Assembly: GCA_900317955.1 (NCBI GenBank)
Contig: ONIP01000004.1
Coordinates: 1 to 64,000 of the forward strand
Direction: 5' to 3'
Length of the DNA stretch: 64,000 nucleotides
Source of the DNA: an uncultured Bacteroidales bacterium
Lineage (GTDB): Bacteria; Bacteroidota; Bacteroidia; Bacteroidales; P3
Shown here: positions 1-4,469 of the stretch, one piece after another
How the letters are laid out: every line of letters begins with the position of its first letter
Numbering within the stretch: position 1 is the first letter of the stretch
Notes under the pieces: generated by a model
What the model was told of the DNA's origin: nothing
Seen by the model: the letters and a program-made list of their open reading frames with translations, nothing else
The model's database searches: none
Program-made: the position numbers and the translations under genes

Positions 1-302
1 ATAGTAGGCATATCCAATTACCTCCTTCGGTGATACTATTTCCTATTATTATACGCTATTTCTCATCAAAAATCAACCATTTGTTGTGACATAGCCTTTT
101 CAATTACATATCATCCATGTTGCAACCGTCTGAATACCTTTTATACCGCCTCAATAACATTTATGATTTGTTAAGATAAACGGTTTTGCCATTCTTCACT
201 ATTCTGCTATTTGCCAATACTGTTTTTTGAGAAAAAATTTTTACGGCAATGACAGAGCACTACCCAACCAAATGACAGGGGGGGGGTGGGGGCTTACATC
301 AT
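1..302. other. AT-rich flank of mobile element, no gene seen
   Basis: No convincing coding sequence is visible here. The stretch is AT-rich and lies just downstream of the initiator-like gene that ends at 303. The only notable structure is a run of nine G, one T and five G at 278-292. The element presumably continues to the left of the window, because no second copy of the tRNA-Val 3' end is found here. Confidence 0.5.
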
Positions 303-1076
303 CTACAGTTTGCCAACTTTGTGATTGGGGTGTTTCTTGTTATATTCCTCGATCATGGTATTTATTTTATTCTTTCCGGCTGGGCTGTTAAACCATTGAC
401 CAAATTCATCATCATTATAACAGCTTAAATTGTGGGTGTCTTTAATAAAATCAAGAATTGCAATTCCTATTATATCCTCATGCACATTGTATTTGATGCT
501 ATTATCTTTGATAATTCTATGCATTCTTTCGCTTTCGTCTCCCAAATCCTCATTTTGTGGATTGGAGATTTCTTTTTGTCCACAGTAGTCTGTAACTTTA
601 AGATTATTATTTGCTATATTTTTTTTATTATCTTTTATATTGCAATCCACATTTTGCGGATTGGGAAATCCACATTTTGCGGATTGGGAAATCCTCATTT
701 TGCCTATTCCCGAATACGGATAATGTGTATTTGCATCTTGCTCAACTGCTTTTCCCAATCCACATTTTGCGGATTGGGAAATCGTTTTATTATTGCCCGT
801 TGGCAGACTAAATTTCATGCCCCTTTGCCCTCTTCTTATCTCCAAAAAACCTTTACTTACCAGCTCATCGATTGCCCGCCTTACGGTTTCCTCGCTCACA
901 CAAAATATCTCTGCAATTTTTTTGTTCCCACCATATACAGCCATATTTTTTTTGAGAAATCCATATATGTAACTAAACACACATGCAGTTAAGGGCTTAC
1001 AATAGGCGAATAGGTCGTGTGACACCTTAATATAACTGCCACTTTCCATTACATCTTCGATAAATTCTCTATCCAT
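303..1076 (-). CDS. Helix-turn-helix replication-initiator-like protein of a mobile element
   Basis: A 257 aa protein. Residues about 10-95 look like a winged helix-turn-helix of the kind found in phage and plasmid replication proteins, with the recognition-helix-like stretch KIAEIFCVSEETVRRAIDEL. Residues about 95-180 are low-complexity and contain a duplicated peptide, ISQSAKCG, because the DNA below it carries near-identical 19-bp palindromes (545-775). The C-terminal 70 residues, NVHEDIIG onward, form a separate small domain. It is the last visible gene of a tight operon; its start is 3 bp from the stop of the nuclease gene. A replication role is inferred from the fold, the nuclease neighbour and the iteron-like DNA. 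A plain transcriptional regulator is the alternative. Confidence 0.6.
   Translation of the reverse strand: MDREFIEDVMESGSYIKVSHDLFAYCKPLTACVFSYIYGFLKKNMAVYGGNKKIAEIFCVSEETVRRAIDELVSKGFLEIRRGQRGMKFSLPTGNNKTISQSAKCGLGKAVEQDANTHYPYSGIGKMRISQSAKCGFPNPQNVDCNIKDNKKNIANNNLKVTDYCGQKEISNPQNEDLGDESERMHRIIKDNSIKYNVHEDIIGIAILDFIKDTHNLSCYNDDEFGQWFNSPAGKNKINTMIEEYNKKHPNHKVGKL
545..775. repeat. Intragenic iteron-like palindromic repeats
   Basis: Five copies of a 19-bp unit lie inside the initiator-like gene. Three are identical, AATCCACATTTTGCGGATT at 644-662, 667-685 and 757-775. One variant is at 545-563 (TC for AC and TG for CG in the arms), and one is degenerate at 690-708. Copies at 644, 667 and 690 are spaced exactly 23 bp apart, about two helical turns, and 757 is a further 67 bp on. 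Each intact unit can fold back (AATCC with GGATT); the last copy extends into a 31-bp palindrome at 751-781. The arrangement resembles replication-origin iterons inside an initiator gene, as in lambda O, but function is inferred. Confidence 0.7.
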
Positions 1077-1079
1077 AAC

Positions 1080-1544
1080 TCAAAACGTTGTATTCTCATA
1101 CCATTTTACAAATTCATTGAAACTTCGGGCAACATAATACAACCCCCCAGCCCGTTCAATGTCGGATTGGTACTTTTTTTGTTTCTTGCTTTGTTTGTCT
1201 GTCCCTATCTTCACTTCGATTTTCACACTTCGCCCTTGAATGGTTGCAGAAATATCAGCTGTTCCGACCGTCATGTGTGATTTTCCCCACTTGACACGCC
1301 CGCAAACTTCGGTCGGTCTACCCATTACCGTTATACGCTCCGCTTGCCCACCATGCAGCTTAATATAATCAATAATGCATCGAGTAAGACTGTTTGCTGT
1401 GGTGTCATCACGGCTCGGCATCGGGATATATGACTGTGTCGGGAAAGGCGTTTCTGCTGCATGTTGCACCAATGCCGGATGTGCATCGCACATCTGCCCC
1501 CATAAGTCCATTTCAAACTGTTTAATTGCTTTATTCTTCTTCAT
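1080..1544 (-). CDS. VRR-NUC family PD-(D/E)XK nuclease
   Basis: A 154 aa protein with the core of a VRR-NUC endonuclease in its C-terminal half: GTAD (Asp97), then IEVK (Glu110, Lys112), then Q122-K-K-Y. These are the metal-binding and catalytic positions of the PD-(D/E)XK fold. VRR-NUC proteins of phages and mobile elements are usually small stand-alone nucleases or Holliday-junction resolvases. The start codon overlaps the stop of the preceding gene as ATGA, so translation is probably coupled. The N-terminal 60 residues have no recognisable domain. Placement beside the initiator-like gene suggests a job in replication or recombination of the element. Confidence 0.7.
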   Translation of the reverse strand: MKKNKAIKQFEMDLWGQMCDAHPALVQHAAETPFPTQSYIPMPSRDDTTANSLTRCIIDYIKLHGGQAERITVMGRPTEVCGRVKWGKSHMTVGTADISATIQGRSVKIEVKIGTDKQSKKQKKYQSDIERAGGLYYVARSFNEFVKWYENTTF

Positions 1545-1888
1545 GATGGCAAAACGTCAAATATTGTTAGTTGCCTTTGCTGCGGTTGGCATTCTTCAAG
1601 CCAATACACCTTATAACGGTCTCCAAACTGGTTTACTCTCCATTCCTTTTGTATGTTGTACCCCATACCCAAAAGCCGTTTAATGGTGGTTCTTGCATCT
1701 GTTATGGTGTGTCCCCCAGCCCGTACTATTCCATTTGCGGTCTTAACGTCCATATAGTATTGCTCTGCCAATTTTTCTATTTGTGCGTTTGATAGGGGTG
1801 TGTCTGCATCCCGTAAAATCTGCAACACGATACGCATTACATAACCTTGCATCGTGGGGGCTTGTGGCTGCTGTTCGTGCATTGTCAT
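1541..1888 (-). CDS. Small hypothetical element protein, possible winged helix
   Basis: A 115 aa protein of unknown function. Residues about 15-95 are helical with the flavour of a winged helix: a segment around LSNAQIEKLAEQYYMD could be a helix-turn-helix, and the GHTITDARTTIKRLLGMGY segment resembles a recognition helix and wing, as in domains that read DNA or protect origins. This is a weak structural impression only. It overlaps the HTH gene upstream and the nuclease gene downstream by 4 bp each (ATGA), so all three are likely translated from one message. Confidence 0.55.
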   Translation of the reverse strand: MTMHEQQPQAPTMQGYVMRIVLQILRDADTPLSNAQIEKLAEQYYMDVKTANGIVRAGGHTITDARTTIKRLLGMGYNIQKEWRVNQFGDRYKVYWLEECQPQQRQLTIFDVLPS

Positions 1889-2181
1889 TTTACACCTCCT
1901 TTCCGTGGGTGGTTCAACACATAGGCTGCTGCCTGTTCCTGTACTTCCTCGTTTGTCATTACTCTGTGATTAAGTAGCCAACTGCACAAATCGGTCTTGG
2001 AAAAATACGTCTGTTTCCCTCCCTTGCTTTTGTAGTGTGGTATTCTTTTTTGGCAAACCAGCCTGTAAAGGTATGATTTTGACAAACCCGTGTACGCTGC
2101 TGCATCATCCATTGTTAGGGCATCTTTGGCACCCAATAGCGTTAATTGCTCGATACGTTCTAAACGTTGTTCGATTGACAT
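1885..2181 (-). CDS. Excisionase-like helix-turn-helix protein (HTH_17/MerR-type)
   Basis: A 98 aa protein with a short MerR/Xis-type helix-turn-helix. The core is LTMDDAAAYTGLSKSYLYRL followed by IPHYKSKGGKQTYFSKTDLCSWL, the layout of the Bacteroidota helix_turn_helix_17 family. In integrative elements these proteins act as excisionase or recombination directionality factors or as local regulators. It is the first gene of a five-part cluster running to 303, with a TAnnTTTG-like -7 box on the minus strand at 2279-2286 and a terminator separating it from the integrase operon. The assignment to excisionase rather than repressor is inference from position. Confidence 0.75.
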   Translation of the reverse strand: MSIEQRLERIEQLTLLGAKDALTMDDAAAYTGLSKSYLYRLVCQKRIPHYKSKGGKQTYFSKTDLCSWLLNHRVMTNEEVQEQAAAYVLNHPRKGGVK

Positions 2182-2278
2182 TGTTTTTGATTATATAATT
2201 GCGGGGCTGTTAAACGGCTCCCCAATCCCGTAACTTTCGATGCTGGTTCGCTCCCTCGCTCTCGATCGAAAGACGGTG

Positions 2279-2286
2279 CAAAAGTA
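2279..2286 (-). promoter_or_regulatory. Putative -7 box for the element's second operon
   Basis: The minus strand reads TACTTTTG, matching the Bacteroidota -7 consensus TAnnTTTG, about 100 bp upstream of the excisionase-like gene. No good TTTG is seen at the expected distance upstream, so support is partial. Confidence 0.4.
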
Positions 2287-2304
2287 CAATAAAGTGCTAT
2301 AAAA

Positions 2305-2333
2305 ACGGGGAAATTCCCCGCGAAATTCCCCGT
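2305..2333 (-). terminator. Rho-independent terminator after the integrase operon
   Basis: On the minus strand ACGGGGAA pairs with TTCCCCGT and is followed by TTTTT. It lies 34 bp beyond the stop of the 2367-3017 gene and separates the integrase pair from the excisionase-like operon. The sequence also contains an internal direct repeat, GAAATTCCCCG, giving alternative stems. Confidence 0.7.
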
Positions 2334-2366
2334 AATAAATACTGAAAATCAAACGATTATATAATA

Positions 2367-3017
2367 TTATTTTTCAATTGCTTTGTTTATTATCCCCGTT
2401 ATTTCACTTAATCCTCTCACACTCGCCCCCTCATCATCTATCTTGTAGGCTGTTTTCGCCAACCCTGTGGCAATCCCAAAATAAGTTTCAAACGGCTCGT
2501 ATTCATATTTTCCGTTTGTAGGTTGCCACAATCCCTGTGTTCTTTCCTCAATCAACCGAACAGCCTCTACACACAATCTCCTTTTTTTTCCTTCCCTCCA
2601 CTCATCACAATAGCCTGCTTGCTCCAACGCATCTAATATCTTCTTCACATTCCCCTGCGTCAGTCGTTCATCAATCGGCTTTTCTTTTTTCTTCTGTTGC
2701 TTTGTGGTATCTTCAATCCTCTCCAACTCTGAAAGTACTATTTTTCTATACTCATTAATCGAAAGGTATGCGGGCAATAATCTCGCTCTATTCAATCCTT
2801 TCTGTATCTCATTTAACACCCGTTCCAGCCAATCTTTATAACTCCCATTACGGTCACATGCTGCCTGTTGCATACACCAATTATAATGTTCCTCTCTCTT
2901 TTGCATTATCCATGCATCCACTTCGGGGAACACCTCCCTAACATCACCGGGGGTTGTATTGGGGCTTACTTCCACCCAATTGCCGTTATAATTCACTTTC
3001 ATCCTCTTGCCCTCCAT
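2367..3017 (-). CDS. Hypothetical protein co-transcribed with integrase
   Basis: A 216 aa charged, mainly helical protein with no motif I recognise. It has no signal peptide or membrane segment. Residues about 105-150 are rich in Lys and Glu (KQQKKKEKPIDERLTQGNVKKIL) and may contain a helix-turn-helix-like fold. The start ATG overlaps the integrase stop as TAATG, so the two are probably translationally coupled. Genes in this position in Bacteroidota elements are often element-specific. A second start five codons in (MKVNYNGNW) is equally possible. Confidence 0.6.
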   Translation of the reverse strand: MEGKRMKVNYNGNWVEVSPNTTPGDVREVFPEVDAWIMQKREEHYNWCMQQAACDRNGSYKDWLERVLNEIQKGLNRARLLPAYLSINEYRKIVLSELERIEDTTKQQKKKEKPIDERLTQGNVKKILDALEQAGYCDEWREGKKRRLCVEAVRLIEERTQGLWQPTNGKYEYEPFETYFGIATGLAKTAYKIDDEGASVRGLSEITGIINKAIEK

Positions 3018-4189
3018 TACAGATTATTCAACAGGTTTACCGCATCCACTTTCTTTTTATCCACTATCTTTGCATATATCTGTGTTGTGGCAACCTCGGA
3101 ATGTCCCAACAGCTTACTAACGGTGTAGAGGTCTGCCCCTTTTGTCAATAGGGTTGTGGCGTATGTGTGGCGGGCTGTGTGTAGTGTCAAATTCTTGCTT
3201 ATCCCTGCCCGTTCTGCCCACGCTTTCAACGTGCGGTTCATTGCTGGCTCTGTCGGTATGTCGGCAAATACAAGCCCGCTGGCGGGGTTTTCTCCCTGCT
3301 GCGGTAGAAACTCCCGTGCCTTGCTCGATAGGGGCAAATAGAGGGGTGTTTGCGTTTTCTGCTGGCGTATGGTGATAGTCCATTGTTCGCCCTGCTGGTT
3401 TATGTCAGCCCACCGCAACGCTTTAACGTCCGATATACGCAAACCGCAATAACACATAAAGAGGTACGCCCGCCTTGTTTCCTCGCTGGCTGTCGGGGTG
3501 TTCTCTAACAACTTCAACTCATCAATGGTAAGATACGCCCTTGTGCTTTCGGGTACTTTGATTTTGTCCGCATCTGCCAACATATCACACGGGTTTTTGT
3601 TTATCACGCCCTCCCTCACAGCCTCGGACAATGCAAACCTCAAACATTGGTAACGCTTTTGTGCTGTGCTGGCTGCTAAATGCTGCCCCGTGTTCTGCAC
3701 AGTACGCCCGATAACGTAACCCGTACGCAAATACTCTATAAAGCCCTTGCAAAATTCAGTGTCCACGTCCGACACTCTCACACGCTCACCAGCGTATTGC
3801 CTCAACAGGTCGGCTGTGTTCTCTATCGTACGCCCCCACGTGTGGCGGTTGGCTGCGGTGCTGGCTCTCTGCTCTGCCTGTTCGGCACAATGCATCATCC
3901 AATCCGACAACAGTATTTTCGACTGCCAAACACGCTTTAATCCCGCCTCTTCGGCTATGATTGCCCGTGTACGCTCTGCCTTGATAGCGTTTGCAGCGTT
4001 CAGCACCTCCAAGTTATGCAGCTTGTCAAAGGGTGTTTTTTCGGGTATTAGATAGAGTTTCAAAAATTCATATTCCCTTTGCCCGTCTTTGTAATAGTCC
4101 AAATACAACGACACATTCCCGTTTGACAGTCTTTTTTCCCTCAAACGTACCGTTTCTTTCGCCTTGCTGGCAACTTTCTTTCTTGGCAT
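3017..4189 (-). CDS. Tyrosine recombinase / site-specific integrase
   Basis: A 390 aa integrase of the phage type common in Bacteroidota. The N-terminal half is an arm-binding domain followed by a SAM-like core-binding domain (residues about 100-200). The catalytic domain shows the expected set: Arg251 in GLRISD, Lys278 in RQQKTQ, His337-x-x-Arg340 in HTARH, His363 in LLGHS and the nucleophile Tyr372 in TTQIYAKI. It breaks and rejoins DNA at the att sites to integrate or excise the element. It is oriented away from two tRNA-Val genes that end about 200 bp upstream, the usual target arrangement. A -7 box lies at 4221-4228, giving a short leader. Confidence 0.93.
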   Translation of the reverse strand: MPRKKVASKAKETVRLREKRLSNGNVSLYLDYYKDGQREYEFLKLYLIPEKTPFDKLHNLEVLNAANAIKAERTRAIIAEEAGLKRVWQSKILLSDWMMHCAEQAEQRASTAANRHTWGRTIENTADLLRQYAGERVRVSDVDTEFCKGFIEYLRTGYVIGRTVQNTGQHLAASTAQKRYQCLRFALSEAVREGVINKNPCDMLADADKIKVPESTRAYLTIDELKLLENTPTASEETRRAYLFMCYCGLRISDVKALRWADINQQGEQWTITIRQQKTQTPLYLPLSSKAREFLPQQGENPASGLVFADIPTEPAMNRTLKAWAERAGISKNLTLHTARHTYATTLLTKGADLYTVSKLLGHSEVATTQIYAKIVDKKKVDAVNLLNNL

Positions 4190-4391: not shown

Positions 4392-4394
4392 GTG

Positions 4395-4469
4395 TGGTCT
4401 GTGGCAGATTCGAACTGTCGACCTCTTCCGTGTGAAGGAAGCGCTCTGAACCAACTGAGCTAACAGACC
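4395..4469 (-). tRNA. tRNA-Val (anticodon CAC)
   Basis: Reading the minus strand, a full cloverleaf is visible: acceptor GGTCTGT/ACAGACC, D arm TTAGCTCAGTTGG, anticodon stem CTTCC/GGAAG with loop TTCACAC (anticodon CAC, codon GUG) and T loop TTCGAAT. The T stem GACAG/CTGCC has one A-C mismatch, unlike its neighbour. No CCA is encoded after the discriminator A. The 3' end faces the integrase, so this gene is the likely attachment site of the element. Confidence 0.93.

Follow-up and report, generated by a model that had tools for sequence, protein, structure and literature searches.

A putative lambda-type replication origin encoded inside the initiator gene of a Bacteroidales integrative element

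Replication origins carried within initiator genes

The origin of lambda is located inside a replication gene. In ori-lambda, dimers of O bind to 19-bp inverted repeats that are nearly perfect, and a 40-bp AT-rich region beside the repeats opens; all of this lies in the O gene (PMC5043065; PMC7466680). In the annotated lambda record, four 18-bp iterons are found at nt 348-433 of O. They are spaced 20, 24, and 23 bp, fall in several frames, and are followed by a stretch of 80% A+T. Similarly, SPP1 has its oriL inside the replisome-organizer gene 38, where initiator-binding repeats are accompanied by an AT-rich unwinding region (PMC6316719). The origins of phage-inducible chromosomal islands (PICIs) have a two-sided arrangement and are sited 3' of the rep gene (PMC6092414).

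The window analyzed here is a 64,000-nt stretch from an uncultured, gut-type Bacteroidales bacterium, whose genome comprises 2.8 Mb in 61 contigs. Its gene at 303-1076 on the minus strand resembles lambda O in several respects. Both encode a winged-helix initiator and contain, in the middle of the gene, inverted-repeat iterons of about 19 bp at spacings of about 20-24 bp and in several frames. In both, an AT-rich stretch is present on the 3' side with the same polarity. The positions in the gene also correspond: nt 348-433 in lambda and nt 301-433 for copies 1-4 of the window. In both genes, A+T then peaks at 80% or more. The window differs from lambda in the letters of the iteron, in its five copies, in the gaps of 67 and 99 bp, and in one copy past the AT-rich stretch. 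Further, its element, of about 5 kb or more, is not a phage with known structural genes, and no helicase-loader gene of the P, gp39, or DnaC type was found within the 302 bp downstream of the initiator gene, where the contig ends. Kinship between the two iteron sequences was also considered. They agree at 11 of 18 positions, which is matched by 3.7% of random near-palindromes; this likeness is within chance (about 4%), and the sites are therefore not proposed to share an ancestor.

The window shares with SPP1 the repeats in the initiator gene, whose binding by the window protein is putative, and the AT-rich region. SPP1 is different in having a second origin, and its host and protein family are distant. 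PICIs, like the window element, are small integrated elements with an integrase and a regulator, and the window copy beyond the AT-rich stretch resembles their two-sided origins. However, their origin lies 3' of rep, whereas the window array lies inside rep, and membership in the PICIs was rejected on this ground. Neither packaging nor interference genes were seen in the part of the element on this contig; the remainder is off this contig.

The initiator gene, its repeat array, and the host element

The 257-aa protein is similar to PHROG families of replication initiators and helicase loaders (428, 186, 678, and 345), with e-values from 9e-10 to 5e-8. The match to the PHROG 428 profile (9.3e-10) is due in part to a low-complexity linker. 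The best full-length matches are replication initiators. Among Pfam families, HTH_36 scored 25.2 bits, barely above the cut-off of 25, GntR was slightly below its cut-off, and Phage_rep_O reached 17.5 bits, far under the curated cut-off of 28.7. No close homologue was found in viral contigs, phage and plasmid records, or genome contigs, and no relative in PDB was detected by sequence. The protein is predicted to consist of an N-terminal winged helix (approximately aa 1-90), a linker of low predicted order (approximately aa 92-180), and a helical C-terminus, with domain limits taken from a low-confidence model. This single-sequence AlphaFold2 model has pLDDT 35 and was left out of fold searches. 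It is this linker that the iterons encode.

Inside this gene are five copies of a 19-bp imperfect palindrome, AATCCRCAAAATGNGGATT in the coding strand. In the direction of the gene, the copies are located at 757-775 (copy 1), 690-708 (copy 2), 667-685 (copy 3), 644-662 (copy 4), and 545-563 (copy 5), all on the minus strand. Copies 1, 3, and 4 are identical, copy 2 has lost one arm, and copy 5 differs at 2 of 19 positions. The starts at 644, 667, and 690 are separated by exact 23-bp steps. The first-pass annotation had described five repeats in this helix-turn-helix gene, three of them at an exact 23-bp period, and this was confirmed. Its description of perfect palindromes was not, as the 19-mer contains one mismatched pair, which is G.U in mRNA; arms of 14 bp are reached only by copy 1 with its flanks (751-781). 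It had also proposed that the 23-bp period puts the binding sites on the same face of DNA. At 10.5 bp per turn, 23 bp corresponds to 2.19 turns, and neighboring sites are about 69 degrees apart; the proposal is thus not supported.

The array is unique in the genome. When up to 2 mismatches were allowed across the 2.8 Mb, only the five in-gene copies were detected, and a reversed control pattern showed no match. In the window, 9 matches on both strands were found with up to 3 mismatches, against 0.3 expected, and 0 of 100 shuffles reached 9. Inside the gene, 101 pairs of 12-mer repeats were counted. The maximum was 9 among 100 codon shuffles and 67 among 100 synonymous shuffles. In viral contigs, 37 records contained the pattern with one match apiece, which is the chance level.

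Counted along the gene, the copies start at nt 302, 369, 392, 415, and 514. Their phases are 1, 2, 1, 0, and 0, and they are translated as QSAKCG, GKMRIS, QSAKCG, NPQNVD, and NPQNED. All three frames are thus used. The peptide ISQSAKCG, which the repeats had been thought to force into the protein, occurs only twice. The spread over three reading frames indicates that DNA is both the repeated unit and the target of selection, and excludes selection for one peptide. Across the gaps of 67 and 99 bp the unit is kept while the intervening DNA is unrelated. Copies 1-4 end at nt 433 of the gene. The stretch directly after them (597-643), which copy 4 abuts, is a putative DNA-unwinding element; its 40-bp maximum is 90% A+T, against a gene average of 64%. 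Copy 5 stands alone across this stretch.

An integrative element, whose genes (303-4189) all lie on the minus strand, adjoins tRNA-Val (4394-4469). The order is a tyrosine integrase (3017-4189, family match), a 216-aa protein, an excisionase-family HTH protein of 98 aa (1885-2181, family match), a 115-aa protein, a nuclease-like protein of 154 aa (1080-1544), and the initiator. The nuclease-like protein, encoded immediately upstream of the initiator, shows a weak match to VRR-NUC and a match to a PHROG endonuclease. A 15-bp direct repeat of the 3' end of the tRNA-Val gene, GTGGTCTGTGGCAGA, is found at 4394-4408 and again on another contig (G000 C20:732-746), and is likely the attachment core. 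With the second core on that contig, its positions 1-731 would represent the other end of the element, which is thus split over two contigs. The left end of the window is the end of contig C28. Exact copies (97-99 bp) of window positions 1-99 are present in contigs C13 and C47, and C20, C23, and C32 share a part of 28-32 bp. These bases probably come from the end of an insertion sequence with several copies, which would explain the contig end at this point.

Recurrence of the layout in O-like genes

Using the excisionase gene as a marker, related elements were found in 29 genomes. The nearest homologue of the initiator is encoded by L105 (G057 C3), from a congener, at the same position in the element. 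The two proteins show 22% identity, with an e-value of 1e-5 in a two-sequence comparison. The L105 gene contains the palindromes ACGTCAAAAATGGC, ATGCCGAAAATGAC, ACGCCAGAATTGAC, ACGACAAAATCGGC, and ACGCCAAAATCGAC, spaced 24, 23, 24, and 24 bp, in the same gene region as the window array; the sequence differs. This array is degenerate and was missed by exact-repeat counting. It was found with a periodic-array score, which is 103 versus 65.7 +/- 2.6 in 60 codon shuffles (maximum 73; z about 14). A stretch of 82% A+T follows. The L105 element also encodes a 135-aa protein with weak matches to the terminase small subunit (e-value 3e-5), and its integrase is split into two frames, hinting at a phage satellite.

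Replication genes of other related elements are different. L098-L102, L107, and L108 have integrases 98-99% identical to that of the window, and their replication genes, which encode either a G2P-type rolling-circle Rep or a 241-aa protein, are unrelated; behind a constant integrase, one replication module has been exchanged for another. Pairs of palindromes with an A-run center (GGTAACGCAAAACGCGTTACC; GTATACAAAAAATGTATAC) are present at nt 767-820 in L101 and nt 640-690 in L102, downstream of the excisionase start. They lie immediately upstream of the gene for the G2P-type Rep and are possibly its origin or operator. In L115, repeats of NHDCNHNCNHDLNHNCN are found at the end of one ORF and then at the start of a later ORF (nt 295-1047 and 1495-2232 downstream of the excisionase start). 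They are a candidate for another iteron array in coding sequence.

The PHROG 428 profile was used to search 120 congeneric genomes and 295 genomes of the order. Seventeen further O-like genes were collected and then tested for repeats; the profile spans the linker and may favor repeat-rich genes among those collected. In 12 of the 17, internal repeat pairs exceed those of all 100 codon shuffles; one of these, L130, was discounted for having in-frame repeats only. Significant multi-frame arrays are therefore present in 11 of the 17 O-like genes, versus 0 of 22 GntR regulators from the same genus, which are mostly shorter genes and in no case surpass their own shuffles. The other 6 show no clear multi-frame array. 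The periodic-array score, an independent measure, reaches z 4.6 to 12.1 for several of these, and no control exceeds 2.2. In the homologues, spacings not divisible by 3 are found repeatedly.

The array begins close to where the winged helix ends (aa 76-152) in the 14 genes that carry one, namely lambda O, the window gene, that of L105, and the 11 above. The most AT-rich 40-mer averages 0.80 in the 80 bp after the array versus 0.63 in the 80 bp before it (Wilcoxon p=0.0007, n=14, array-bearing genes only). Palindromic arrays with a central A-run are seen in the window, lambda, L105, and L121, and plain direct-repeat, non-palindromic arrays occupy the same place in L120, L122, and L132. A check of homologues for repeats at this place had been suggested by the first-pass annotation. 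It turned out positive: L105 and the majority of O-like genes from the genus and order follow the plan, in which the layout is fixed and the sequence changes.

Alternative readings and a model of initiation

It is highly probable that the repeats are initiator-binding iterons of the replication origin of the element, encoded inside the initiator gene as in lambda. This is suggested by the unique array, the use of three frames, the O-like matches, the layout of ori-lambda, and the recurrence in homologues. A self-encoded origin comparable to that in lambda O had been proposed from the first reading of the window, and the feature-by-feature match and the layout of the homologues speak for it.

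The repeats could instead act in mRNA, where transcript hairpins would limit synthesis of the initiator, either by slowing translation or by attenuating transcription. The hairpin at 751-781 is indeed stable in the coding-strand RNA (-20.3 kcal/mol, z -6.0), in which the mismatched pair becomes G.U. However, copy 5 folds no better than shuffles (z -0.9), copy 2 lost one arm without compensation, no U-run follows the hairpin, and the non-palindromic arrays of L120, L122, and L132 would form no hairpins at the same place. A role in mRNA is very unlikely on these grounds. Palindromes also suit a dimeric repressor, and the winged helix scores nearly equally with GntR and HTH_36. The sites may be operators; a GntR-like regulator would then bind within the gene that encodes it and repress its own operon. 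This is given little credence, because the full-length matches favor replication initiators, the 22 GntR regulators of the genus are without such arrays, and five sites deep in the gene with an AT-rich neighbor fit an origin better. Replication binding and autoregulation are not exclusive, and an additional operator role is possible.

The location of the repeats in a linker of low predicted order would also be compatible with neutral expansion of a disordered segment, since unequal crossing-over can duplicate short units, or with selection of the repeats as peptide. Neither leads to the use of all three frames, to the excess of repeat pairs over the synonymous shuffles, to homologue spacings that are not multiples of 3, or to a unit kept by copies 99 and 67 bp apart with unrelated DNA between them, and this origin of the repeats is hardly credible.

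If the repeats are iterons of a lambda-type origin, replication would presumably follow integrase-mediated excision of the element. By analogy with lambda and SPP1, the 257-aa protein would bind each imperfect palindrome via its N-terminal winged helix, probably as a dimer. The protein assembled on the array at 644-775 would strain the DNA, and the AT-rich stretch at 597-643 would open. The C-terminal part may then recruit a helicase loader or the host helicase, as in the two phages, and theta replication would begin at the opened stretch.

The arrangement is proven in lambda and SPP1, and the window would extend it to small integrative elements of another phylum. It provides a rule for finding origins from sequence only: a multi-frame array is sought in the segment that links the winged helix to the C-terminus, with an AT-rich stretch after it. 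This rule would be applicable to many unstudied Bacteroidales phages and integrated elements, and tests of binding and replication can start from the short, defined segments of the window. The linker of O-like proteins from Bacteroidales phages and integrative elements may be a general, fast-changing origin cassette, in which the recognition domain and the origin diverge as a unit and the layout (a period of about 22-24 bp and a 3' AT-rich stretch) stays fixed; we regard the case for this generalization as evenly balanced. If it is true, the origin would be carried between its own recognition domain and the helicase-recruiting domain, and recognition domain and origin would move together.
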